Assembly: GCA_020435205.1 (NCBI GenBank)
Contig: JAGQZY010000024.1
Location: 1-34,112, forward strand
DNA from: Bdellovibrionales bacterium
GTDB lineage: Bacteria; Bdellovibrionota; Bdellovibrionia; Bdellovibrionales; JAGQZY01
Direction of reading: 5' to 3'
Length of the DNA stretch: 34,112 nucleotides
Positions within the stretch are counted from its first letter, which is position 1. Each line of letters starts with the position of its first letter. The notes under the pieces were generated by a model that was not told where the DNA came from, did not search any database, and saw only the letters and a program-made list of their open reading frames with translations. The translations under genes and the position numbers were made by a program. Positions 3,929 to 33,416 of the stretch are shown one piece after another.

Positions 3929-5598
3929 TGGAATCGGTAAAGCGAGTCTTTTTTTCACAAAAATTCATATTGGGCTCCGCCCTTCTGATTCTATTTGGGC
4001 TTTGTGTGTATCCCTTTGCCATATTGTTCTACACGGTGCTTTTTCCTAAAGAAGAATTTTCTTTGGAATTCTTATCAGCTGTTTTAAGTCACAAGTCAGC
4101 ATTGCGGGCCCTGAAAAATACAGTACTGACTAGTTTTGCGATTGCGACTTTGAGTGGGATCATCGCGATCCCCTTGGCTTGGCTTGTCACTCGGACCAAT
4201 TTACCATGGGCGTCGCGTTTTCGTTCATGGTTTTGTCTACCCTATGCCATTCCACCTTATATTGGTGCCATTGCCTGGATCTATCTAGCCAATCCCACTA
4301 CGGGGTATATCAATCAAATTTTTGGTGAAGGCTTTGTGAATATTTATTCCTATGGTGGGCTCATTTGGGTGCAAACCACCTTTCTATACACCTTCATTTT
4401 ACTTGCGGCCCTATCGGCCCTCGATAAAATGGATCCATCCCTTGAGGAGGCGGCAAGGCTTTCGGGCGCTGGTCCTTTTCGAGTTTTTAAAGATATCACT
4501 TTGCCCTTGATTCAACCGGCTCTGTGGAGTGGTGGCCTTTTAGTGGGTTTAGCCTCGGCGGCAAGCTTTGGTGTACCAGCCCTTATTGGAAGTCCTGCGC
4601 GAATTTTTTTAATGACCACTCAAATTTATACCTTTCAAAAAATGGGCTCCATGTCGGGGATATTTAAAGCGGGGGCTCTATCCATCTTATTATTGCTCGT
4701 TGCCTTAGCGCTTTTATTATTGAGCCAAAAAATTACTTCTAAAAAACGCTATCAAATTGTATCCGGTAAAACAGCTCGGCCGTCGTTGATTGATTTGGGG
4801 CCGTGGAAACTGCCATCAGTTTCTGTTCTTTTTGTCCTACTTTTTATTTTGTTTTTAATGCCTTTGGGTTCCATCATTTTGACTTCCCTCAGTGAAGTGC
4901 AAGGAAGCTTTGGCTCTTTAGGCTTTGCTAACTACCATCGCGTTCTTTTTGAAATGAGCGAAACTGGCAGGGCATTGTGGAACTCCTTCTCATTGGGCAT
5001 TTTGTCCGCCACCGCAGCTACGGCACTAGCGATTTTATTAGCCTACATGGGGCAAAAAACAAAAATTCCCGGGCGAGCTTGGCTCGATATTTTAGCTTCC
5101 TTGCCTTACTCTATTCCAGGAACTGTAGTGGCGCTTGCACTGATTCTTGCTTTTAGTGCTGGCTTTTTTGGTATTGGTCCTTCGCTTTATAATACTCTGG
5201 CGATGTTGTGGCTTGCCTACATGGTGAAATATCTAAGTCTTGCTATGAAGACGATTGGTGATGGTTACGGACAAATTGATGATAGCCTTGCCGAAGCGGC
5301 AAGAGTCGCTGGTGCGTCTTGGGCCGAAAGTTTAAAAAGCATTTGGCTCCCTTTGATGAAGCCGTCCATTGTAGCCGCTTGGTTTTTGATTTTTATGCCG
5401 GCTTTTAGTGAGCTAACCATGACCATCTTGTTGGCGGGGCCGGGGACTGAGACCTTGGGGACATTGATTTTTCAATTGCAAGAGTATGCCGACGCCAGTG
5501 GCGGTGGGTCGGCTGTACTGGCCGTGATCGTAGTTTTAAGCGTGCTGATTACGAACACGCTTGTGAAGATTTTTTCTAAAGGGAAGTATGGTTTATGA
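3928..5598 (+). CDS. Iron-type ABC transporter permease, two fused permease domains
   Basis: Inner-membrane channel of the importer. At 556 aa it carries two binding-protein-dependent permease domains in one chain, as in FbpB/AfuB/ThiP-type proteins, with about twelve hydrophobic segments. Each half has an EAA loop that docks on the ATPase: EEAARLSGAG in the first half (about residues 171-180) and AEAARVAGAS in the second (about residues 455-464). One gene therefore supplies both membrane halves. The start ATG overlaps the stop of the binding-protein gene by one base, and the TGA stop overlaps the start of the ATPase gene (ATGA). The fusion is usual for this subfamily. Substrate is inferred from the subfamily, not seen. 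Confidence 0.9.
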   Translation: MESVKRVFFSQKFILGSALLILFGLCVYPFAILFYTVLFPKEEFSLEFLSAVLSHKSALRALKNTVLTSFAIATLSGIIAIPLAWLVTRTNLPWASRFRSWFCLPYAIPPYIGAIAWIYLANPTTGYINQIFGEGFVNIYSYGGLIWVQTTFLYTFILLAALSALDKMDPSLEEAARLSGAGPFRVFKDITLPLIQPALWSGGLLVGLASAASFGVPALIGSPARIFLMTTQIYTFQKMGSMSGIFKAGALSILLLLVALALLLLSQKITSKKRYQIVSGKTARPSLIDLGPWKLPSVSVLFVLLFILFLMPLGSIILTSLSEVQGSFGSLGFANYHRVLFEMSETGRALWNSFSLGILSATAATALAILLAYMGQKTKIPGRAWLDILASLPYSIPGTVVALALILAFSAGFFGIGPSLYNTLAMLWLAYMVKYLSLAMKTIGDGYGQIDDSLAEAARVAGASWAESLKSIWLPLMKPSIVAAWFLIFMPAFSELTMTILLAGPGTETLGTLIFQLQEYADASGGGSAVLAVIVVLSVLITNTLVKIFSKGKYGL

Positions 5599-6320
5599 GT
5601 AAAGTCATTTTTAAAAATGTAAGAAAATCCTTTGGCGAAACCGACGTCATCAAAGGGTTTGATTTCACTATCGAAGATGGGGAGTTTATTGCTTTTTTAG
5701 GACCTTCGGGTTGTGGCAAAACCACCTGTTTAAGAATGGTAGCTGGCCTAGAGAAAAACACCAGTGGTGAAATTTATATTGGTGATCGCAAGGTTTCAGC
5801 GCCAGAAGAGGGGCTCTTTGTGGCGCCAGAAAAACGCAACATCGGTATGGTTTTCCAATCCTATGCAGTTTGGCCGCATATGAATGTTTTTGACAACGTG
5901 GCCTACCCCTTAAAAGTGGCTAAGGTTTCAAAAGATGAGATTACAAAGCGTGTGGAAAAGGTTTTGGAAACTGTTGAATTAAAGGGGCTAGAAAAGCGTA
6001 TGCCTAACCAGCTCAGCGGTGGCCAACAGCAACGGGTGGCCTTAGCTCGTGGGCTTGTTGCTGAGCCAGACGTGCTTTTGTTGGATGAACCCCTGTCGAA
6101 TTTGGATGCAAAACTGCGTGAAAAAATGCGCAAAGATATTCGCCGCATTCAAAAAGAAATGGGCATTACTGTGATTTATGTCACTCATGATCAGGTCGAA
6201 GCTATGGAAATGAGTGATCGCATGGTGATCCTCAATCGAGGCGTTGTAGAGCAGTCGGGGAAGCCAAAAGAGGTGAAGCAAAGTCCACGAACAGCCTTCG
6301 TACAAGACTTCCTATCTTAA
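5595..6320 (+). CDS. ABC transporter ATPase subunit, short form without C-terminal regulatory domain
   Basis: Cytoplasmic ATPase that powers the importer. All nucleotide-binding motifs are intact: Walker A GPSGCGKT (residues 36-43), Q-loop in VFQSYAVWPH, signature LSGGQQQR (about 139-146), Walker B DVLLLDEP with D-loop SNLDAK, and the switch histidine in THDQ. The protein is 241 aa and ends soon after the switch region. FbpC/PotA-type ATPases are usually about 340-370 aa with a C-terminal TOBE domain, so that domain is missing here. The ATG overlaps the permease stop as ATGA. A terminator hairpin follows 40 bases after the stop. Confidence 0.93.
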   Translation: MSKVIFKNVRKSFGETDVIKGFDFTIEDGEFIAFLGPSGCGKTTCLRMVAGLEKNTSGEIYIGDRKVSAPEEGLFVAPEKRNIGMVFQSYAVWPHMNVFDNVAYPLKVAKVSKDEITKRVEKVLETVELKGLEKRMPNQLSGGQQQRVALARGLVAEPDVLLLDEPLSNLDAKLREKMRKDIRRIQKEMGITVIYVTHDQVEAMEMSDRMVILNRGVVEQSGKPKEVKQSPRTAFVQDFLS

Positions 6321-6359
6321 AAAAGTGCCAGGTTCTTTTTCAGAGGCGCACGATAGCCT

Positions 6360-6384
6360 GGGACGTTTTTCACGTCCCCTTTTT
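6360..6384 (+). terminator. Rho-independent terminator of the ABC importer operon
   Basis: GGGACG at 6360-6365 pairs with CGTCCC at 6373-6378 and is followed by C and TTTTT to 6384. It lies between the convergent ATPase and PilZ genes. Read on the minus strand there is no T run, so it serves the plus strand. Confidence 0.85.
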
Positions 6385-6386
6385 GG

Positions 6387-6770
6387 TCAATGCAGTTCGC
6401 CGGGACCAGGAAGAAGATCACACAAACACTCGCGCCAGTACTCTGGGGCATCGGACGTGTAATCAATTCCAATTTCAAACTTGTGATCGCCGCAGTATTT
6501 GCTGCGTACAATGATCCCAGTGATATCTAAGTCCATAGCTGGAATAAATATGGAAACCTCAAGGCCTTCTATAGAGTCCAAAGTCAAAGTGTCTTTAAGC
6601 TTGGGATCACAAAGGTCTTTGCGAAAAATCTCCAAACGAAAGCCACTAGCTGAAGCTTCAACCATATATCCGTCGTCGGCAATGGGGGTTAAGGTACCAA
6701 TGGATATCAATCCTTGAATATGAAGGGGGTCGATATTTTTTCTATCAAAGTATCTCTTCTCCGCACTCAT
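6387..6770 (-). CDS. PilZ-domain-like protein (127 aa)
   Basis: Small cytoplasmic protein with the two hallmarks of PilZ domains, which bind cyclic di-GMP: an RxxxR-type motif (R6 to R10 in RYFDR) and, about 30 residues later, ExSxxG (E38, S40, G43), a variant of the consensus D/NxSxxG in which the first position is Glu. The following strands (FRLEI, LEVSIFI, FEIGIDYT) fit the beta-barrel. PilZ proteins act as second-messenger receptors for motility, adhesion or secretion; the target of this one is not shown. GGGAGT sits well placed upstream of the ATG. Because the first position of the second motif is not D/N, weak or altered ligand binding is possible. Confidence 0.72.
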   Translation of the reverse strand: MSAEKRYFDRKNIDPLHIQGLISIGTLTPIADDGYMVEASASGFRLEIFRKDLCDPKLKDTLTLDSIEGLEVSIFIPAMDLDITGIIVRSKYCGDHKFEIGIDYTSDAPEYWRECLCDLLPGPGELH

Positions 6771-13475: not shown

Positions 13476-14816
13476 TCAGTCCTTCTCGAACTTGTATTCT
13501 TCAAGCTCCACCCAATCCAGACTCTCTGGGTTTCGGAGGACCCGCTCCATTTGGATGACGTGGACGTTCAACATGAACCAGCCGTTCTTTGGTTCCATGG
13601 ATAGGAACTGCTTTAACAAGGCGAGCTTCATATGGGCCACCACAGGATGGGAGGAGTTCCAGTAAATGGGCGACTTATAAAGGTGGTAGAGATCCTGTAC
13701 CAGCATGTAGTAGGCCCGATTGCCGGTGGGGCTTCCGGGGGCACTATTGATATAATAGTGAGAGTAATAATTCACAATGTGGTCCCAGGCCTGCCAGAAC
13801 TCCTCCATGCTGCGGATATCAAGTGGGGGGCGGAGTTCAACCTCTCGGTTCTCAAGCTGGCGTTGGCGATCGATCGGTCCGAGCAGGTAAGCGTCTTCCT
13901 TGCCATCTATGGAAGGAAAGAGTTTTTTGTCCATATGGCGTTTTAAAAAGTCCACGCCCGACACCTTTAATAAATGCATCCCGTTTTTAAAAACAACGGG
14001 TTCCATGGCCCCCGTCGGCCCTTTTTGCAGGACGGGTTCGTAGCCAAAAGGGCGATAGTGGTCCACCAGTTGTGGCCTGGCACTGCCGTAAACTTGCAGG
14101 TTTCGCGAGGCAATTAAAGACAGGTCTCTAAAGGCTAAATAATTTCCATTATTGTAGGTGGAGTCTATAAACTGGGCCACGCTATGAAAAATGGCATCGA
14201 CGCCATTGATAAAAGTTTTGGGGTTCCCCAAAAGCCCCAATTCAACAATAAAAGGTGAAGGGCTTTGGTCCCGTTCGGGAAAGCGATAGTTGTAGAGCCT
14301 TTCAATGGGGGAGCGCGCTGCCTCTCCACCGGGCACGCGAAACCAAGGTATGGGGCCCATTTGCACGTTTTCCGAGCCATCAAAAATGCGTACAGTGGCC
14401 GTTTCTTCTTTATAGCGAATTTCAATGTAATGAGTGCGGATAGGCGGTAATGACTTATCCAACTCTCGTAAGTTTTGAATGTCGCTTTCCTTATAATGAC
14501 CGGATTGTTGCCAAAAGCGAAGGGCGCGCTCCACTAACCCATGGACCTCGAAGGGTTGATATTCGGCGGGCATCCAGCGCTGCTCACCGGAAAAGGCCCC
14601 ACTGTCCGTGACGTTAAATATTTTCACTCCGTAGCGAAGACTGGCAAAAATTTGCTTACATTGAACCCTTTGTCCCGGAGGGGGGGCATCGAAATCTTCA
14701 ATAGCGAAACTTTTTTGGTGAGAAGTGATGCGCATTTGTGAAGGATGAAAGTGGATCGCAAGTGCTTTGCCTGTTAAGAAAACCAAAATGAGGAAGCAAG
14801 AGAGCGCTTTCATCAT
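13476..14816 (-). CDS. Exported protein, GNAT-like family, paralogue 1
   Basis: One of three related exported proteins in the window. A signal peptide (about residues 1-20, ending GKALA) precedes a Cys-containing motif CKQIF (Cys53) and RYG, then RIFDGSE (143-149), PWFRVPGG, PIERLYN, PER, ELGLLG (192-197), YNNGN and YGSARPQLVDHYRPFGYEP (243-261). The last part resembles the GNAT motif where a helix before a Phe/Tyr-Gly pair is followed by a strand; this is inference. The C-terminal 180 residues are shared only weakly with the paralogue at 20008-21333. It begins three bases after the oligopeptide-binding gene and is surely co-transcribed. A C7 run lies at codons 44-46. Function unknown; cytoplasmic acyl-CoA would not be available outside the inner membrane. 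Confidence 0.82.
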   Translation of the reverse strand: MMKALSCFLILVFLTGKALAIHFHPSQMRITSHQKSFAIEDFDAPPPGQRVQCKQIFASLRYGVKIFNVTDSGAFSGEQRWMPAEYQPFEVHGLVERALRFWQQSGHYKESDIQNLRELDKSLPPIRTHYIEIRYKEETATVRIFDGSENVQMGPIPWFRVPGGEAARSPIERLYNYRFPERDQSPSPFIVELGLLGNPKTFINGVDAIFHSVAQFIDSTYNNGNYLAFRDLSLIASRNLQVYGSARPQLVDHYRPFGYEPVLQKGPTGAMEPVVFKNGMHLLKVSGVDFLKRHMDKKLFPSIDGKEDAYLLGPIDRQRQLENREVELRPPLDIRSMEEFWQAWDHIVNYYSHYYINSAPGSPTGNRAYYMLVQDLYHLYKSPIYWNSSHPVVAHMKLALLKQFLSMEPKNGWFMLNVHVIQMERVLRNPESLDWVELEEYKFEKD

Positions 14817-14819
14817 TGC

Positions 14820-16412
14820 CTATCGAAACAGGGAAAAGTCTAGCCGTTGAGAAAAGTGCAAAGCTGCATTCTTGATTTTTTTCGAAACCAAATAGTGGGC
14901 TATTGGATAATAAAGTGGGATGACAACCTGGTCCTTATCAATAAGTTGCTTTTGCGCAAGAGCGCAAGCTGAGGCTCGTTGGGCTTGGTCTGGGCCATGG
15001 GTCACGCCTTGTAACAGAGTTTCAAAACTTTCATTTTCATAATGAGCATAATTGTTTTTAGAATATTTAGAAAACAGGCTTAGGTAGGCTGCAGGTTGTA
15101 GGTAATCAGGCGCCCAGGTCAATCGGTAGATTTCAAAATCAGTGCGATCAAACAGCTGGGAAAAATAAGCAGCATTGGGTCGCAACTGAATTTCAAAATG
15201 AACTCCAGAAATCTGACTCCACTGGGACTGCAAAGCTTCCAAGAGAACTTTATTTTCAGGACTGTTGTTGCTCGTGATGGTTATTTTCATGGGGTCATTG
15301 CTACCAAATTCTTTGCGGAACCGGTAAAATGACTCTTCAAAGCTTTTTGCCGGCAGCGCTTCAAAAGAGCTGCAATCGACAAAGCTCGGCACTAAAGAAT
15401 GGGCCACCTTCAAATCTTTGTGGAGGACCTTCACCAGCGCCTCTTTGTTAATCGCTGCTCGCAGTAGCTCTCTAAATGCTAATGACTGGGCCATTTTTGA
15501 TTTTAATTGGAAGGCCAAAAATGTGATTCCCGCACCCGGTTTGGATTGGACAAATCCTTTTAACTCAGAACTGGATAAAGTCTCACTTGGTGGTGATACG
15601 ATAAAGTCCAGCTCCTTCTTTTTAAACAAGCGAACGGCAACCTGTGGATCTTCGAGCCAAGGGATAAGGATGTGTTGATAAAATGGCTTTTTGCTAAAGT
15701 AATGGGGGTTGGATTTTAAAACCAAGTGATTGCCGCGCACAACTTCACCGATTTGATAGGGCCCAATACCCACAAATGATTCGTCCATAACTTGGCGAGA
15801 ACCCTTCAATAGATCCACACGCATGGGGTAGGCGTGTGCACCGATGAGAAGCTCTGGGAAATACGAGTTTGGTTTTTCCAGTTCTACTGAAAAACTATAA
15901 GGGCTGAGTTTACGCATCCCTACCTTTGAAAAATCAAGTTCACCACGATGAAACTTCTCTGCGTTCTTAATCGCAAAGAGTTTGTAGGCCGTGGGAGATG
16001 CTGTTTGTGGTGATAGAAGGTGTTTCCAAGCATCGACGTAATGTTGGGCCAGCAGGATTTGGCCATCAGACCAGTGAATGTTTTTGCGAATCTTAAAAAA
16101 CCAAGTTTTAAAATCCCGGCTGTGCGACCAGTGATCAATGATCAGAGGTTTCACTTTGGCTTTGCTTGACTGGGGGTCATAGATAAAAAGGCCCGACATC
16201 AGTTGGTTAGCAATATGAAAGGAGGTGGACTGTCGACTTTGCGTCCAATCCAGGCTGTCAGGCTCGGCCCCCAAATAAACCTTTAAGCTGGTGTCCTTTT
16301 TTGAAACCCGGTGAAAAAGGTTGCTCCCCGCAGGGGTGCAGCCCAGGTGAGGCAGGCAAAGCATCATTGTTAGACCAAGGAGACCTGAGGGGTGCGCCAG
16401 AAAGATAAGCAT
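14820..16412 (-). CDS. Oligopeptide-binding lipoprotein (solute-binding family 5)
   Basis: Periplasmic peptide-binding protein of the OppA/DppA type. Start chosen at 16412, which gives a signal peptide ending in HLGC (Cys25) and so a lipoprotein; upstream in-frame codons add an implausible charged leader. The family opening is visible (AEPDSLDWTQS), as are GLFIYDP, the W..S.D...W.F.IR.NI.WSDG block and VDAWKHLLSP. At 530 aa the length is normal. No permease or ATPase genes of a peptide importer are nearby, so it is an orphan binding protein here. It is followed after three bases by the GNAT-like paralogue 1 and is divergent from paralogue 2. Confidence 0.88.
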   Translation of the reverse strand: MLIFLAHPSGLLGLTMMLCLPHLGCTPAGSNLFHRVSKKDTSLKVYLGAEPDSLDWTQSRQSTSFHIANQLMSGLFIYDPQSSKAKVKPLIIDHWSHSRDFKTWFFKIRKNIHWSDGQILLAQHYVDAWKHLLSPQTASPTAYKLFAIKNAEKFHRGELDFSKVGMRKLSPYSFSVELEKPNSYFPELLIGAHAYPMRVDLLKGSRQVMDESFVGIGPYQIGEVVRGNHLVLKSNPHYFSKKPFYQHILIPWLEDPQVAVRLFKKKELDFIVSPPSETLSSSELKGFVQSKPGAGITFLAFQLKSKMAQSLAFRELLRAAINKEALVKVLHKDLKVAHSLVPSFVDCSSFEALPAKSFEESFYRFRKEFGSNDPMKITITSNNSPENKVLLEALQSQWSQISGVHFEIQLRPNAAYFSQLFDRTDFEIYRLTWAPDYLQPAAYLSLFSKYSKNNYAHYENESFETLLQGVTHGPDQAQRASACALAQKQLIDKDQVVIPLYYPIAHYLVSKKIKNAALHFSQRLDFSLFR

Positions 16413-16503
16413 TTTTAATAGCTTGAGTGTGATGGCCTTTTTACAATTTGTTATTTTTTCTAGCTCTTTTGGGTGCATTGCGTTAGAAGGGATAACAAAC
16501 TTT

Positions 16504-17769
16504 ATGACCCGAGCCAAATGGATTCTTCAGTTCTTACTTTTATGGATGGTGCCTCCGCCCAGTGGAGCGGTAGAGCCCACTCCTTACACTCTGTTCATGG
16601 TGCAAAATAATGGGCCCAGCACAATTTTTGGTCGACCTAGCTGCCGCCATATTTTTTCAAGCCCTAGGGGTCAAATGATAGAGTTTGAAGTTTCGGACAG
16701 TTTAAGTAGTGAACTCAGTGTGAGGCCTGGCGCCCATCGCCCTATAGAGTCCACAGCTGTACAAAGAGTGTCTCGATTTTTTTCTGTTAGTTTTAAAAGC
16801 TATTCTGGATATTGGCATTGGCGGCCTTTGGATTTTGCAGAACCCCAGCCCGGTCCCTCGCGCATGGTGGAAAGAACCAACCATTTTTTTGATCGCTGGG
16901 TGAGCGATTTTGGTCGCAATCCTGTGGCTGTTGAAAATTTAAAACAAATTGCCAGTCAAACCGAACCTTTGCGCAAAATCCAAATCGGAATCAAAATGGG
17001 TGAGACCCCCTGGGGAGGCGTTGTCCTTTTTGATGGTTCCACGCGTATGTTCAATTTTCATTCTATGGGAAAGATGGTGGAAAATTCATTCGAGACCAGC
17101 TCTCGATCGGATCTGGAGCTGCGCTATCCCGATTTAAAGCTGCCAGAGAGAAGGCTCGAGGAGCGGGGCGAGGAGGTGCAAATCTTTTTCCTCGGGCAGT
17201 TAACGTCTCTCCATGAAATCCAAAAAGCCATTCCTTACCTTTATCATAGAGTGGCGTTGATGCTTTTAATGAAAACCAATCCCGAGCTGGTGCAGACTCG
17301 TGTCCCCGAAAATAAGTTGAAAGATGACCCACAGTTAGAAAATCAACTGCAAATGCACAAACATTTTTCAACATCATGGATGACCCCCATCAATGTTGCC
17401 GAAGCCGCCTACCTTAAGGCTTTTATACCCCAAGAAAAGTGGCCCGAAGCCGTGTTTAACGCCCGCAATGTCAGAATGTACGGCTCTACCCATGTGGATC
17501 TTCTCCCTTTTTATGAAAAGCAGGGATGGAAGGTCCTTGAAACTCAGCCTCGCGATGGAGTGGATCCCGATATCAGAATTTTATATTTTGAGGTTGCCAA
17601 TTTTATTGGAAGGTATTTTTGGTCTCAGGAAACTAGGGACATACTCGCAAAAGCAACCAAGGTGGGGGAAGACAGTGAGGCCTATAAGGCGGAGCGGGAA
17701 AAAGAGATGGAGCGTTTTCGAAAATATTGGTATCAATTTAAAGAGAATCGTAGGAGTTTTGCCGAATGA
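16504..17769 (+). CDS. Exported protein, GNAT-like family, paralogue 2 (divergent member)
   Basis: Start at 16504 gives a normal signal peptide (MTRAKW, hydrophobic run, PPPSGA); an earlier start would reach into the divergent gene. It shares the layout of the other two paralogues: CRHIF (Cys47), an aromatic stretch, VLFDGS, LPERR, FFLGQL and, near residue 325-350, ARNVRMYGSTHVDLLPFY followed by EKQGWKV, the part closest to a GNAT acyltransferase core. It is 421 aa with a charged, Glu/Arg-rich C-terminus. Identity to the other two is low, so it diverged earlier. It ends in ATGA with the TetR gene, so the regulator is co-translated. Function unknown. Confidence 0.78.
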   Translation: MTRAKWILQFLLLWMVPPPSGAVEPTPYTLFMVQNNGPSTIFGRPSCRHIFSSPRGQMIEFEVSDSLSSELSVRPGAHRPIESTAVQRVSRFFSVSFKSYSGYWHWRPLDFAEPQPGPSRMVERTNHFFDRWVSDFGRNPVAVENLKQIASQTEPLRKIQIGIKMGETPWGGVVLFDGSTRMFNFHSMGKMVENSFETSSRSDLELRYPDLKLPERRLEERGEEVQIFFLGQLTSLHEIQKAIPYLYHRVALMLLMKTNPELVQTRVPENKLKDDPQLENQLQMHKHFSTSWMTPINVAEAAYLKAFIPQEKWPEAVFNARNVRMYGSTHVDLLPFYEKQGWKVLETQPRDGVDPDIRILYFEVANFIGRYFWSQETRDILAKATKVGEDSEAYKAEREKEMERFRKYWYQFKENRRSFAE

Positions 17770-18410
17770 GCATACAACAGGATTACAGTTGGATTGGCAA
17801 TATCCAGCACACCAAAGGACAGGCCACCAAGCTACGAATCATAGAGTCAGCGATTCGTTTGTTTAGTGAAAAAGGTTTTGCCAATGTGACTTTGCAAATG
17901 ATTGGCGAAGATTCTGGGACGTCCCATCCTCTTATCCTCAAACACTTTGGCACCAAAAATAATCTCCTTCTTGGAGTTCGAAAATTTGTAACCTTTAGCA
18001 ATCACAAGTGGGTGGACGCTAAAATCAAACCAACTCAGACCGCTCGTGAAAAACTTTTTTGTCATTGCATTGAAAACTTAAGATGGGCTATCGCCAATCG
18101 CAGTGAAGGAAAGATTATTTTACTCACCTATTACCATGAATCTTTAGACCAATCTCCAACCCAAAGTGCGGGCGTTCAAGCACTGAGCTTAGGAACCCAG
18201 CGTATTGAAGCTTACCTTCAACAAATGCAGCGCGAGGGTTTCCAGTTTGGTAAAAGGGATTCCAGGATGTTGGCAGAAATGGTTCATGAATACCTCTTGG
18301 GAGTCTACAGCTATATGCTCACCACCACCCCGGCTTCTACCAAACGCCTACCCAAATCCTATCAAGATAAGCTGGAGACCTTCTTTAGCCTCCTTTTTGA
18401 CCCGAAGTGA
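17766..18410 (+). CDS. TetR/AcrR family transcriptional regulator
   Basis: Cytoplasmic one-component regulator. The N-terminal DNA-binding domain is typical: ATKLRIIESAIRLFSEKGFA (about residues 20-39), then VTLQMIGEDSGTSHPLILKHFGTKNNLL carrying the recognition helix (about 41-68). The C-terminal ligand/dimer domain shows no recognisable specificity. It overlaps the exported paralogue 2 gene by four bases (ATGA), implying a single transcript. Likely targets are its own operon or the lipoprotein pair downstream; an imperfect palindrome lies at 18503-18516. 214 aa is normal. Confidence 0.93.
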   Translation: MSIQQDYSWIGNIQHTKGQATKLRIIESAIRLFSEKGFANVTLQMIGEDSGTSHPLILKHFGTKNNLLLGVRKFVTFSNHKWVDAKIKPTQTAREKLFCHCIENLRWAIANRSEGKIILLTYYHESLDQSPTQSAGVQALSLGTQRIEAYLQQMQREGFQFGKRDSRMLAEMVHEYLLGVYSYMLTTTPASTKRLPKSYQDKLETFFSLLFDPK

Positions 18411-18460
18411 CATAAAAATTCAAATACCTGTAATTACACATTTTTGGCCACAAAAAGTTA

Positions 18461-18547
18461 TATAATGTAAATTAAAATTGATAATTTGTATATTTGGTGC
18501 GAGACAGGGCCCCGTCAAGCAATGGCAAAAATAACGGCATTATTTTT
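18461..18547 (+). promoter_or_regulatory. Leader region of the lipoprotein pair: -10 box, palindrome and hairpin
   Basis: TATAAT at 18461-18466 is a perfect -10, without a good -35 at normal distance. Downstream, GACAGGG/CCCCGTC (18503-18516) forms a palindrome with one mismatch. AAAAATAA (18527-18534) and TTATTTTT (18540-18547) are perfect arms of an AT-only hairpin just before the AAAAAGGAG ribosome site. Roles are inference. Confidence 0.4.
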
Positions 18548-18564
18548 TCAAAAAGGAGTAAAAA

Positions 18565-19188
18565 ATGAAGAAGCTATTGGTTCTATTGGGGGCATCCCTA
18601 CTTTTGTGTAACTGCGCGAGTATATCCACTTTGCAAACAGCTCGTACTTTAGAAAAGGGCGACTCTGAACACTCGTTTGGTCTCAGTATGTATAGCAGTG
18701 ACGACTTTCTTGGAGGGGATGACATCAGTCTTCCTGTTCTTGAGTACACCTACCGTCGTGGCTTAATGGATAAGCTCGATTTTGGTGTGAAGCTCGCGAT
18801 TATTGGCAGTACCGTCGCCGACATTAAATACAATCTCATCAACGGAGAAAAGTTTGCCCTCGCTACCGGTCTTGGCATCGGCTATCTTTCCTTCACCTCT
18901 ACGGTTGGAACTGTTGAAGAAAAATCCACCATTCTCGACTTCATCGTTCCTCTTTATTTGAGTTATGACGTGGGCGAAATCACCAGTCTTTATGGAGCGG
19001 CTAAATATTTTTATCGTAGTATTAGCACAGACTCGAGCGTTGCAGGTGACGGATCAATGGCATCCGGGACATTTGGAGTCAAGGTGGGTAAGACCTCTGG
19101 CGTCTATCTTGAGGGTAGTTTAATCACAGGCCTTGATAATGATTTTTCTGGAACTCAGTTTAACACCTCTTACTTCTTTAAATTCTAG
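18565..19188 (+). CDS. Outer-membrane beta-barrel-like lipoprotein
   Basis: No family recognised by name. The signal peptide ends in LLLCNCAS, with two cysteines (15 and 17) that could be lipidated; Asn before Cys17 is unusual. The body alternates short hydrophobic strands with Gly-rich turns (YRRGLMDKLDFGVKL, GLGIGYLSF, LYGAAKYFYR, FGVKVGKTSGVYLEGSLI) and the chain ends in Phe, all suggestive of a small outer-membrane barrel. GGAG is well placed before the ATG. The next lipoprotein gene starts nine bases after its stop. Its position after the TetR gene suggests possible control by that regulator. Confidence 0.7.
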   Translation: MKKLLVLLGASLLLCNCASISTLQTARTLEKGDSEHSFGLSMYSSDDFLGGDDISLPVLEYTYRRGLMDKLDFGVKLAIIGSTVADIKYNLINGEKFALATGLGIGYLSFTSTVGTVEEKSTILDFIVPLYLSYDVGEITSLYGAAKYFYRSISTDSSVAGDGSMASGTFGVKVGKTSGVYLEGSLITGLDNDFSGTQFNTSYFFKF

Positions 19189-19197
19189 GAGGGGAGC

Positions 19198-19962
19198 ATG
19201 AGATCAGTAAAATTACCTAAAAATATTTTAATGAGTTCAGCCCTTGTGTTTCTTTGTTCATGTGCCGCTTTTGCTCCTAAACTTGATAAAGAGCGTGCCA
19301 AACAAGTGAGAAAAGTAGCCATTCTCTCTTTTGAAATTATACAGGCGCAACCCAAAGACGCTTTGGGTTTAAGTCAAATCGGCAGCATGGAAAGACGATC
19401 TGACTCTAAACCATTCAAGGATATGGCCGAAGCCATTTATAAGGATCTTTCTAAGGCGATTCAGACCTCAACCGGCTGGGAGGCTATTGGTTTAAGTCAG
19501 CTGAGAAATAGTGATAGATATGCAAAGCTGTATCAGCAAAAAATGACAGGCCTGCGCATGACATCTATTGTGCCTGAAAACTCAGAGATTGTTTTTGTGA
19601 ATGGTGTTTTAGACAATGCAAACTTTAGGCGCTTAGATTTTAAAGATAAGGTGGCGCTCGCAAAGTCTGTGGGTGCCGATGCCTTCGCTGAATATGTAGG
19701 CTTTCAAAGGATTGATCAGGGTTTTTCTATAGGTAACCTTGTTGGCGAGGCAGAGTTCTCTTTTATCACTCGTTCCAATTTAATGGTCTACGGGTTTGAT
19801 TCTGAGGAGCCTGTCTGGCGCATTCAAAATATCGATGGCCCCAGTAGTGAAAAGTCTGGAACCCTCCCCAAGGAAGTCAAAATCTTGGGCCGACTCTCTA
19901 CGCTGGGTCGCGAGTCAGCAAAAAATTCGATTGAAAAACTCGTTAAGAACTACTCTTTGTAG
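19198..19962 (+). CDS. Lipoprotein of unknown function (254 aa)
   Basis: The signal peptide ends in FLCSCAAF; Cys22 with LCSC fits a lipobox. The body opens with VRKVAILSFEI and later has LAKSVGADAFAEY and SFITRSNLMVYGFDSEEPVWR, a pattern resembling periplasmic lipoproteins of CsgG/LpoB-like alpha/beta fold, but I cannot assign it firmly. A strong AGGAGGGGAG ribosome site precedes the ATG by a few bases. The LC-x-C pattern is shared with the protein encoded upstream, and both genes form a two-gene unit closed by a strong terminator. Confidence 0.75.
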   Translation: MRSVKLPKNILMSSALVFLCSCAAFAPKLDKERAKQVRKVAILSFEIIQAQPKDALGLSQIGSMERRSDSKPFKDMAEAIYKDLSKAIQTSTGWEAIGLSQLRNSDRYAKLYQQKMTGLRMTSIVPENSEIVFVNGVLDNANFRRLDFKDKVALAKSVGADAFAEYVGFQRIDQGFSIGNLVGEAEFSFITRSNLMVYGFDSEEPVWRIQNIDGPSSEKSGTLPKEVKILGRLSTLGRESAKNSIEKLVKNYSL

Positions 19963-19982
19963 TGAACCCATTAACGATGCCG

Positions 19983-20009
19983 GGCGAGGGGATCTCCCCT
20001 CGCCTTTTT
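19983..20009 (+). terminator. Rho-independent terminator after the lipoprotein pair
   Basis: GGCGAGGGG (19983-19991) pairs perfectly with CCCCTCGCC (19996-20004) around ATCT, followed by TTTTT. The T run contains the stop codon of the convergent gene. Read on the minus strand no T run follows. Confidence 0.92.
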
Positions 20010-21333
20010 AATCAACCTGTGGATTTTCAAAAGAAAAGTGGCTGGGGCCATAGTCAAAAGGAGAGGTGGAGCTACCACGGCCTCCAAAGAAGCTGTGCCT
20101 CAGTACAGCCCAACCGTATTCGGGTCCTTCAACGAGGAGCTCTTTAATGAGTGCTCTCTTTACGGGAGCATTACTATCAAAGCTATCCACCAATGGGTCT
20201 TTCAGCATAATGTGAAGAAGGCGAACCAGTTGAAAGTAGTTTTGCTCACGTAAGACAGAGCCTACTGGGGCCGCCTCAATTTCACGACCATAGGTGGAAA
20301 GTAAGCTTTGCCAAGTTCTCATAAAATGTTCTGGTTGCTGAAAAGGAGTTTCGGGTCTTTGTTTGTCCACCTCGCGGTTGATTTTTTGTAAAGCCGCCAT
20401 GATCGACTTGATTTTCTCAACATCTTCTTTAGCATAACCATCGCGAGTGTCTGGATGCGAGGGTTTGTAGAAATGCTCTTTGATAAAATCAGCACCGGAC
20501 ATTTTAACAAGGACCATACCATCAGGAAACCGGTAAGGTTGGACCACGCCATTGGAAGATGCTAGCCAAACGGGTTCTAGGCCGTATTCGCGAAACTTTC
20601 CCAGCAAGGACTCCCGTACAATAGCATAAATCTGCATATTGTTTTCTTTTATGGTGTCTAAGGTTCCCATAACTCTAAAATTCATATTGTTATAGTGGGC
20701 ATCTAGTAGAAAAGCCACATTGGAAAATGTTGAGTCCGCACCTTTGATAAAATGCTTCGGGGCGCCGTGCAGCCCCAGCTCCCAAATGAATGCTGGCGGC
20801 CTCATTAAGCGCTCTGGCAATTGAATATTGTAGATCCTTTCGATGGGAGTCAGTGCTTCTTTGCCTCCGGGAATATGGAACCACGGCATACCCTGGTTCG
20901 TCGGGAGCTCAGAACCATCAAAAATACGAATTCCTGAGACTTGCCCTTGATGCTCAATGGAAACATATTTGGTACGAATAGCAGGGAGACTTTGATCCCT
21001 GGCCCGAAGCATTTTTATATTGTCTGTTGTATAGAAACCAGACTCTAGCCACCCATCTAAGATTCGGTCGACCAGCTTTAAAGTCTCTGGAGGGCGGTGG
21101 TCAGCCCAGTGAAAGGAGGTATCCGAGCTGCGCAAACCTTCGGGCGTGGCTTGCAGGACGCGAGCCCCATATCGAGCCATAGTAAAAATATTTTTGCAAG
21201 AGCCACGTTTTTTTTCGAACTGAAAGGGATCCAGTTGCTTATCAAAGACAGTGATGTTCATCGAAGCTTGTCCACAGAGTCCGTAGAAAAAAATAACTAG
21301 AAAAAGGAAGGACATTAAAGATTTTTGTTTCAT
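20008..21333 (-). CDS. Exported protein, GNAT-like family, paralogue 3
   Basis: Closest relative of the gene at 13476-14816. After a signal peptide (residues 1-24, GQASM) it has CKNIF (Cys46), RYG, QSLPAIRTKY, RIFDGSE, PWFHIPGG, PIERIYN, PER, ELGLHGAPKHFIKGAD, YNNMN and a Y...REYGLEPV segment, in the same order and spacing as paralogue 1. The GNAT-like reading rests on this core; the YGSAR motif is degenerate here (YAIVRESLLGKFREYG). The ATG overlaps the stop of the trypsin-like lipoprotein gene as ATGA, so the two are translationally coupled. The C-terminal half differs from paralogue 1, with a Gly/Ser-rich tail. Function unknown. Confidence 0.82.
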   Translation of the reverse strand: MKQKSLMSFLFLVIFFYGLCGQASMNITVFDKQLDPFQFEKKRGSCKNIFTMARYGARVLQATPEGLRSSDTSFHWADHRPPETLKLVDRILDGWLESGFYTTDNIKMLRARDQSLPAIRTKYVSIEHQGQVSGIRIFDGSELPTNQGMPWFHIPGGKEALTPIERIYNIQLPERLMRPPAFIWELGLHGAPKHFIKGADSTFSNVAFLLDAHYNNMNFRVMGTLDTIKENNMQIYAIVRESLLGKFREYGLEPVWLASSNGVVQPYRFPDGMVLVKMSGADFIKEHFYKPSHPDTRDGYAKEDVEKIKSIMAALQKINREVDKQRPETPFQQPEHFMRTWQSLLSTYGREIEAAPVGSVLREQNYFQLVRLLHIMLKDPLVDSFDSNAPVKRALIKELLVEGPEYGWAVLRHSFFGGRGSSTSPFDYGPSHFSFENPQVD

Positions 21334-22784
21334 GGAGAGGGTTCACATTCAGGGAGATCAACTTTTATAGATTGAACGTTTTCTCGAGTGAGCCAGTCAA
21401 AACCCATGGAGTATTGTTTTTTATCCTTTTGTGCACTGGCAACGAAATTTCCATTCTCGACGGATAAAGGGAGATTAAATATATCCGTGTCAAAAGTTAA
21501 TGCCAAATCTCCGTCAGGGTCCACCGTGACCTGAATGTAATCATAGTTGACAACAAGTAGAGGCACCTCCTGAACTTGCTTACTTGAATGATGGGTGCAT
21601 TTTGGCAGTGTCGGAAGCATAATTTTTTGTTTATTCTCCAGAATAAGCTGGTCAACAAAGGTGGCAGAGGGGTCTTCAGAGGCCCACGACATGGAAACAG
21701 TGTCTGCGCGTTCAATAAAGTTGTCCCATTCAAAAGGTAAATCACTTTTCATATCTTTAAAACGATTCACTCGGTTGATCATCAAGTCTGAATGGAGAAA
21801 TGTGTTTTGAACCATCAACTCTGTTGCTTCGGGCGTACTTTCAAAAGATGGATCTAAATCACAGAAAAGGGAGCGTTCTTGATTCAGAGCCTCAATGCAA
21901 TGGAGATTAGTGGCTCCCATGACATGGTTACTTAGATCCACACGAGTGCCAAAAACGTCTTTAATAGTACGAGGATCGCGCATTCCAAAGCTGCCAACAG
22001 CAACCAGCTCCCCATTTTGGTTGTGAAAGCCTGAGCCCGATGTGCCAGGAACAAGGCCTTCACTACAGTGGGCAGCAGTCACAATCGGGGCTTGGGAATG
22101 GAAGTACATTTTACTTAAAACATGAAGCATAGATGACTGGCATTCTACTTTGCGAATTTCACCAAAAAATCCCAGCTTCTCAGGGTATTCAGTATAAAAA
22201 ACAGGATATAAATGTAAGCTTTGCTTATGATCAACGCCCCTTAAGTTCAAATGAACTGGGGAGCGAACACTCTCTGTCTTGAGCTTAATAATGGCCCAAT
22301 CGGGGTGGCTTGGATCTGTTTTGTTGTAGTGGCTAGAGAGAGCGACCACTTGAGAACAGTCGATCTCTTCAGTTTCAAATTTATTTGTTTTTGGAAATTT
22401 AACTTTGATTTTTCCTTCACATTGGGCGCCCACTTCTTGAATTTCGAGAGGGATACAGTGGCGATTGGTGAGGACTTTATCTTTAGCAATGAGCTGCATA
22501 GAGCAAACCTCGATGCGGTAGGATTTTACTAATGGTTCGCCCTTATCAATCACCGATAGGCTCACAAGGCCGCCAATATGATCGGGGCAAGACTGATTTT
22601 CTATACCGCAGTTTACCTGTGTATTTGTTAAAGCTTTCTCTGCGTCGCTGACATTGTGGTAAACCTGCTGCTTATCCTTCTTTAAACCGAGAATTTTTTG
22701 AAAGTCAGAGCAACCAGTCTGAGTGCATAGGAACCCCGCGCACAAACAGGTATGTAGCCAAAATGATAAACGTTTTCCCAACAT
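21330..22784 (-). CDS. Trypsin-like serine protease, exported, probable lipoprotein
   Basis: Predicted envelope or surface protease of the chymotrypsin fold. The signal peptide ends near TGC (Cys25), a possible lipidation site although the -3 residue is not hydrophobic. The catalytic triad is readable: His109 in LTNRHC, Asp162 in HPDWAIIKL, and Ser249 in GTSGSGFHNQNGEL, which resembles V8-type glutamyl endopeptidases (GNSGSP) more than trypsin (GDSGGP). A second TAAHC motif at 236-240 is part of the C-terminal lobe and not the active His. About 230 residues follow the protease core and form an unassigned C-terminal region rich in beta strands. Coupled to the GNAT-like paralogue 3 gene by ATGA. 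Confidence 0.85.
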   Translation of the reverse strand: MLGKRLSFWLHTCLCAGFLCTQTGCSDFQKILGLKKDKQQVYHNVSDAEKALTNTQVNCGIENQSCPDHIGGLVSLSVIDKGEPLVKSYRIEVCSMQLIAKDKVLTNRHCIPLEIQEVGAQCEGKIKVKFPKTNKFETEEIDCSQVVALSSHYNKTDPSHPDWAIIKLKTESVRSPVHLNLRGVDHKQSLHLYPVFYTEYPEKLGFFGEIRKVECQSSMLHVLSKMYFHSQAPIVTAAHCSEGLVPGTSGSGFHNQNGELVAVGSFGMRDPRTIKDVFGTRVDLSNHVMGATNLHCIEALNQERSLFCDLDPSFESTPEATELMVQNTFLHSDLMINRVNRFKDMKSDLPFEWDNFIERADTVSMSWASEDPSATFVDQLILENKQKIMLPTLPKCTHHSSKQVQEVPLLVVNYDYIQVTVDPDGDLALTFDTDIFNLPLSVENGNFVASAQKDKKQYSMGFDWLTRENVQSIKVDLPECEPSP

Positions 22785-32624: not shown

Positions 32625-33416
32625 TTAAAAGGGATCTTTACCCCTTATGGTATTCCACATGGATTTGATGCTATCCCAGTTTTGTTGAATCGGGCTGCGG
32701 ATAGCGTGGATTTCGGCATTGCTAAAATCGAAGCCTTTGCTTGATAAATAATCTTTGGCCCACTCGATTCGTTCTCCAGGGGTCATGTAGTGACCACTTT
32801 GATTGTCAAAGTGTAGGACCTTTCCCTGGGGGGTGACGGAAATGTAGCCCGCGAATAGGACCGGAAGGCCGGCAAAGAAACTGCTATGTCGGAAGAATCC
32901 CTTCTTGTTGGGTTCGAACCATTTAATGTAAAGGTCTCCTCTGAGTGAGATGACAAAAATTCCAGAAACATCCTTTTCAAAGGGTTCTAAAGTTTCTGCT
33001 TTTAAAAGTTGGCCTCTTTTTAAAACCACCTGAAGGGGGCGGCGCTCAATCTCATTGAGGTATTTAACATTGTGGCGCATCCCACCCCCCTTTAATGGGG
33101 TGGAACTCCAATAGGCTTCACCCGTATAATAGGGTTGCAGAACGAGGGGGAGGGGTGCATTGGGGTTTTGTTCTTGCCAGAGCTTAGCCATATTCCGGTA
33201 GTTTTTAGAAATGGCCTTGCCATATCGGTAGCGACTGAGTCCCTGGCTGTTCAAGAAGAGACTGTAAAGATGGGCATTTTCATTCTCAAGCTTTTGGAAG
33301 GCGGAATTATTATAAGCTTGGGCCCTTTGTACAAAAAGGCGCTCGCACCGCCAATTTTGGGCATATGTGGAGGCTGACATCAAAATAATGATGAGTATAG
33401 TGAGGGCCCTTTGCAT
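32625..33416 (-). CDS. Exported protein with HSSF and SGHY motifs
   Basis: Signal peptide MQRALTILIIILMSASTYAQ, mature start NWRCERLF. The C-terminal 110 residues contain FRHSSFFAGLPVLFAGYISV (about 175-194), LHFDNQSGHYMTPGERIEWA and a final GFDFSNAEIHAI. I have the impression of similar HSSF...SGHY modules in predicted secreted effector or toxin-type proteins, but cannot name the family. No Shine-Dalgarno is visible before the ATG. A TTGAGC-16-TATCTT pair sits at 33421-33448, so close that the transcript might be leaderless. It is convergent with the small exported protein gene at 32118. Confidence 0.75.
   Translation of the reverse strand: MQRALTILIIILMSASTYAQNWRCERLFVQRAQAYNNSAFQKLENENAHLYSLFLNSQGLSRYRYGKAISKNYRNMAKLWQEQNPNAPLPLVLQPYYTGEAYWSSTPLKGGGMRHNVKYLNEIERRPLQVVLKRGQLLKAETLEPFEKDVSGIFVISLRGDLYIKWFEPNKKGFFRHSSFFAGLPVLFAGYISVTPQGKVLHFDNQSGHYMTPGERIEWAKDYLSSKGFDFSNAEIHAIRSPIQQNWDSIKSMWNTIRGKDPF

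Follow-up and report, generated by a model that had tools for sequence, protein, structure and literature searches.

Enzymes of the FeeM and LuxI type are, to our knowledge, cytosolic and dependent on acyl-ACP or acyl-CoA. Three genes in a contig of a Bdellovibrionales bacterium (34,112 nucleotides in length and referred to here as the window) encode proteins, named A, B and C, that appear to combine a core of this kind with an export signal, and the question raised by the locus is what such a fold may be doing beyond the cytoplasm. We consider the three proteins to be members of an exported FeeM/GNAT branch that is controlled by a TetR-family regulator, with A and C probably catalytic and B probably not, and assign this reading a probability of roughly 0.55. 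It draws directly on homology, the GNAT/FeeM fold of A, the export signal, a lone cysteine, the conservation of an active-site glutamate and linkage to TetR genes.

The three genes are arranged in three tight pairs, SBP_bac_5/A, B/TetR and protease/C (Table 1). The SBP_bac_5 lipoprotein gene lies directly upstream of A with a stop-to-start gap of 3 nt, and overlaps of 4 nt join the end of B to the start of the TetR gene and the protease gene to the start of C; the SBP_bac_5 and protease genes are each likely to form one operon with A and C, respectively. An SBP_bac_5-like gene, judged by sequence, also adjoins TetR in the congener G001 (L033), and the genome of the window carries one further A-type copy outside the stretch.

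Table 1. Genes of the stretch containing A, B and C in the window, and kinase-type neighbours at two other loci
Feature	Coordinates	Strand	Length	Remarks
Protein A	13476..14816	-	446 aa	Exported FeeM-like GNAT protein; modelled GNAT core ~60-295 and C-terminal helical domain ~305-430; catalytic-Glu equivalent E192; single mature Cys C53
SBP_bac_5 (oligopeptide-binding-type) lipoprotein	14820..16517	-		Pfam E 3.5e-51
Protein B	16504..17769	+	421 aa (from ATG)	Remote exported member
TetR-family regulator	17766..18410	+		TetR_N E 8.4e-12
Outer-membrane-type lipoprotein (predicted)	18565..19188	+		Homologue syntenic with family gene and TetR in G001 and G058
Predicted lipoprotein	19198..19962	+		No family match
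Protein C	20008..21333	-	441 aa	Exported paralogue of A; Glu kept (IWELGL)
Trypsin-like serine protease, lipoprotein-type start	21330..22784	-		Trypsin E 9.1e-7
Exported FeeM-like gene and adjacent GAF/histidine-kinase gene, L114	1165-2370 and 2367-3777			4-nt overlap
Exported FeeM-like gene and adjacent GAF/histidine-kinase gene, L105	1480-2706 and 1-1310			

A and C share 38% identity over 425 aa (E 7e-82), and B is connected to A by BLASTP with an E-value of only 4e-4. When B and its homologue (alignment A3) were compared by hhalign with an A-type alignment that excluded B (A1), the match had a probability of 98 and an E-value of 2.3e-13, with the R/FDGS/LE/PER elements and the Y-G-S...Y..xG end in register; a TetR profile used as a negative control gave a probability of 0.2 and an E-value of 0.3. 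Given this profile match, the motifs in register (FDGS and PER being common to all three) and the negative outcome of the control, A, B and C are genuine relatives, B being far more distant than the pair A/C. The initial annotation had described the genes as three exported paralogues and had named a failure of the three to align over the shared motifs as grounds for rejecting this; the frames lie where it had placed them, and the mutual alignment holds even for the remote B.

It had also suspected a GNAT core with FeeM and LuxI as the direction of comparison, and structure prediction bears this out. An AlphaFold2 model of A built on a 20-sequence family alignment reached a mean pLDDT of 84 and a pTM of 0.84, and residues ~60-295 of the model follow the GNAT order of strands and helices before passing into a helical domain. 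In a Foldseek search of this model against the PDB, ranks 1-6 were FeeM (2g0b; E 2.8e-4 to 1.9e-3, probability 1.00), GNATs accounted for almost all of the best 50 matches, and the CoA-dependent AHL synthases BjaI, RpaI and MesI appeared from rank 17. The model of B was poor (pLDDT 61), with a core showing the same order of elements, and its Foldseek matches were mostly GNATs including FeeM, all with E-values of 0.05 or worse, so the membership of B rests on the profile match.

At sequence level, FeeM (PF21926) was the only Pfam model that recurred among the divergent members (2.8e-5, 4.9e-5, 5.4e-5, 3.7e-4 and 0.009), the best of which scored 23-24 bits against a cut-off of 27; it gave no match in A, B or C themselves. 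No Pfam or NCBIfam model reached its cut-off for the exported family, no match to LuxI AHL synthases was found in either collection, and family profiles searched against PDB sequences returned chance-level matches only. Comparison by hhalign of the exported alignments with local canonical FeeM alignments gave probabilities of 8-23, too weak to stand alone. The classical Q/R-x-x-G-x-G/A pyrophosphate loop is degenerate, reading PKTFING in A and PKHFIKG in C with the last glycine alone conserved; this loop is poorly conserved in LuxI-type members too.

Searches with core profiles recovered the family in 18 and then in 27 of 369 Bdellovibrionota genomes, in a scattered and patchy distribution. 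Searches with a single protein reached less far: A found its own genome, G001, G058 and two weak, partial and chance-like matches, and B found its own genome and G058 only. At least eight members are present in G058 (L005, L009, L011, L012, L014, L073, L129), among them a tandem pair near a TetR gene (L129:3558-4979 and 5277-6617). Independent sub-alignments of the long A type and of a short TetR-linked type matched each other with a probability of 96 (E 1.3e-9), and by this sequence criterion the two are one family. One carrier is Bdellovibrio sp. UBA4095, and most genomes of its genus were negative; in a genome of that genus (G057) a short and apparently decayed remnant of a family gene was seen at L115:1411-1791. 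A wider contig search gave no match with A alone and four loci only with alignment A7, all in Bdellovibrionota-type or unclassified Deltaproteobacteria records. One hit, L063, was discarded as a false positive (a response regulator). Searches of PHROGs and PADLOC for the family gave nothing convincing, so no link to phage or to a known defence system is indicated; viral contigs gave nothing either. A description of an exported FeeM-like family was not found in our literature search.

A, B and C each begin with a basic n-region followed by a hydrophobic stretch and then an A-x-A-like site, with putative cleavage at ALA|IHF, SGA|VEP and GQA|SM, respectively; these signal peptides were judged by eye, and those of the relatives by eye or with a crude hydropathy rule. 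The export signal proposed for the three proteins recurs in nearly all relatives across the phylum, and was seen in members with a readable start (that of L061 is cut off by the contig end); several relatives looked cytosolic at first because of their GTG or TTG start codons. Such signal peptides argue against action in the cytosol as in FeeM.

A C-x-x-I-F motif is present in all three proteins (C53 in A, C47 in B and C46 in C) and supplies the sole cysteine of each mature protein. Most mature family members likewise have a single cysteine in a C-x-x-hydrophobic-F/L motif (C-x-x-I/L-F), situated a few to ~30 residues past the predicted cleavage site and preceded by VQ, GS, PS, NQ, FQ and similar pairs. 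A lipoprotein reading of the family was rejected, there being no lipobox and the cysteine not directly following the signal peptide. Nor is C-x-x-I-F supported as a general sorting motif, as few unrelated exported proteins carry it; two with comparable mature starts, NWRCERLF and GSCIGIF, are encoded at 32625-33416 of the window and at L073:2745-3660. Three longer exported proteins of 610-650 aa (L119:58-1986, L122:97-2052 and L121:1501-3330) have seven cysteines and, at the C-terminus, a domain resembling FeeM that matches the Pfam model at 2.8e-5 in L119; no TetR gene lies nearby.

In Nas354, replacement of Glu103 by alanine abolishes the phenotype, this residue being needed for activity (PMC4897644), and Glu94 is among the site residues of FeeM (PMC9654057). 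The column of FeeM Glu94/95 (Nas354 Glu103) holds glutamate in A (E192), in C, in 33 of the 40 exported members and in all four canonical FeeMs aligned. B (F229) and its G058 relative have phenylalanine here, and the remaining members have aspartate (one) or histidine, threonine, serine or glutamine (four). Since the glutamate is kept in A and C and replaced by phenylalanine in B, the sequences suggest that A and C are probably catalytic acyltransferases and that B is probably non-catalytic or altered; the initial annotation was right on the kinship of B and had overlooked this loss.

The same column bears on the possibility that the whole family consists of exported binding proteins, for example for acyl chains, peptides or the envelope, on a retained but non-catalytic GNAT scaffold. 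The degenerate CoA loop, the loss of the glutamate in B and a handful of others including its G058 relative, the large lineage-specific C-terminal regions, and the company of lipoproteins, an oligopeptide-binding protein and a protease would all fit such a role. We nevertheless regard it as unlikely for the family at large, as the glutamate, the arginine and aspartate of R-[IVL]-F-D-G-S and the PIE/PER motifs are all conserved in most members, beyond the needs of a bare scaffold.

The most consistent neighbour of the family is a TetR-family gene, which the initial annotation, correct as to the paralogues, had overlooked. Of 37 distinct loci, 19 have such a gene within ~5 kb, about one being the expectation, and in ~13 of the 19 it is adjacent to the family gene. 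The count was made by hand on the same loci on which the linkage was noticed, and it includes a few TetR genes with a short or truncated frame (L023, L118). With 2-11 TetR genes per genome the chance rate is ~2% (2.2%) per locus, at which the binomial P is ~4e-22. The pair is convergent at eight loci, with ends that overlap or lie no more than 15 nt apart (a 4-nt overlap in L055 and L056), and an OMP-type lipoprotein accompanies TetR and a family gene in G000 (the genome of the window), G001 and G058, genomes that span two families. Distances in the TetR and family alignments are correlated (Mantel r 0.32, reached in 1 of 5000 permutations), a result that shared descent alone could produce. 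In G276, a perfect palindrome, CTGAGTATTACTCAG, lies operator-like in the promoter region of the family gene (L043:10424-10438), with imperfect copies just upstream of the TetR gene (L043:8738-8762); three matches were found against 0.27 expected, the palindrome having been spotted before the test. A search for an operator within the window gave no clear palindrome. In G014 and G267, a gene judged by sequence to encode a GAF/histidine-kinase protein adjoins the exported FeeM-like gene in place of TetR (Table 1).

By analogy with LuxI/LuxR, a synthase-like gene near a regulator of ligand-binding type at 19 of 37 loci could be a signalling pair, in which the FeeM-like protein would synthesize, outside the cell, a diffusible N-acyl compound to be sensed by the TetR protein encoded next to it. 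The fold matches to FeeM and the AHL synthases, together with the kinase-type neighbour in two genomes (L114, L105), are in keeping with this proposal, which we still think distinctly improbable: the synthases known to have this fold work in the cytosol, a set of four to eight or more paralogues in a genome is unlike a single signal system, and B, the TetR-coupled copy in the window, is without the catalytic glutamate.

Returning to the exported FeeM/GNAT branch, we infer catalysis by A and C, control by TetR and a place of action beyond the cytoplasm. The preproteins would leave the cytoplasm through Sec, giving mature forms with a FeeM-like GNAT domain and one conserved cysteine; A and C would then probably act as acyltransferases, whether in the periplasm, extracellularly or inside prey. 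B, having lost the glutamate, is probably a degenerate, binding or regulatory paralogue, and the linked TetR-family regulator would control expression. We know of no thioester donor outside the cytoplasm, which counts against this reading; the difficulty had been raised at the outset, as the absence of acyl-CoA there, and is a real one. The GNAT core, export and the FeeM/LuxI direction of the first interpretation stand; an envelope modification system and catalysis outside the cell are conjecture.

In a predator lineage, the simplest donor for such an exported enzyme would be the acyl-ACP or acyl-CoA of the prey cytoplasm. A sharper form of our reading would have the proteins secreted into prey as predation effectors that acylate prey molecules with these donors. 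The phylum is that of Bdellovibrio, and one carrier bears this genus name (Bdellovibrio sp.); the gene for C is paired with one for an exported protease, and secreted two-gene effector systems that include acyltransferases have been proposed for Bdellovibrionota (PMC12419801). Predatory life of the carriers and delivery to prey are conjecture here, however, and most genomes of the genus containing the named Bdellovibrio lack the family, so that this version appears doubtful to us. A GNAT acyltransferase that dispenses with CoA and ACP, its lone N-terminal cysteine serving as an acyl-thioester carrier that would be loaded from envelope lipids and feed the FeeM-like site, is a highly speculative proposal to which we attach very little weight.

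The recurrence across the phylum of export, one cysteine, the glutamate and a TetR partner leaves three options, namely an unknown extracytoplasmic acyl donor, delivery to a site where a donor is present (prey), or a fold put to a new use. Whichever holds would matter for the physiology of predators, for lipid signalling or for the chemistry of the envelope in Bdellovibrionota.

Among known systems, the secreted acyltransferases proposed as CapCone-2 partners in the accessible part of PMC12419801 resemble the present family in being secreted, in belonging to two-gene systems and in occurring in Bdellovibrionota. Compared by that description only, which does not specify the family of these acyltransferases, they differ in their Lipocone partner, none of which was identified at the loci here.

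The LuxI-type AHL synthases (BjaI, RpaI, MesI) are similar in fold (E ~0.02-0.06) and in having a neighbouring regulator, but are cytosolic, are partnered by LuxR rather than TetR and have no sequence-level match to the exported family, which gives no indication of lactone chemistry.

The closest relatives are the FeeM/Nas N-acyl amino acid synthases (PF21926, PDB 2g0b), which are of the same GNAT subtype, provide the best structural match and the sub-threshold Pfam matches of several members, and have a glutamate at the equivalent position. FeeM itself works inside cells, where it couples fatty acids to amino acids. Canonical FeeMs, which lack a signal peptide, are frequent in the genomes that carry the exported family, two of them in that of the window; they have 3-7 scattered cysteines and in many cases appear by eye to be fusions with PilZ-like regions, and no TetR gene was seen within ~1.5 kb of those looked at. 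In the genome of the window, one such cytosolic domain follows PilZ-like regions, again by eye, at G000:C144:5977-6414 (L091:1291-2736), and G003, G025 and G026 have a similar architecture. The exported proteins differ from FeeM in their Sec signal, single cysteine, extra N- and C-terminal regions and degenerate donor loop. The exported family is homologous to FeeM yet outside it by Pfam's own cut-off, and what is new relative to FeeM is its export, its one cysteine and its pairing with TetR.
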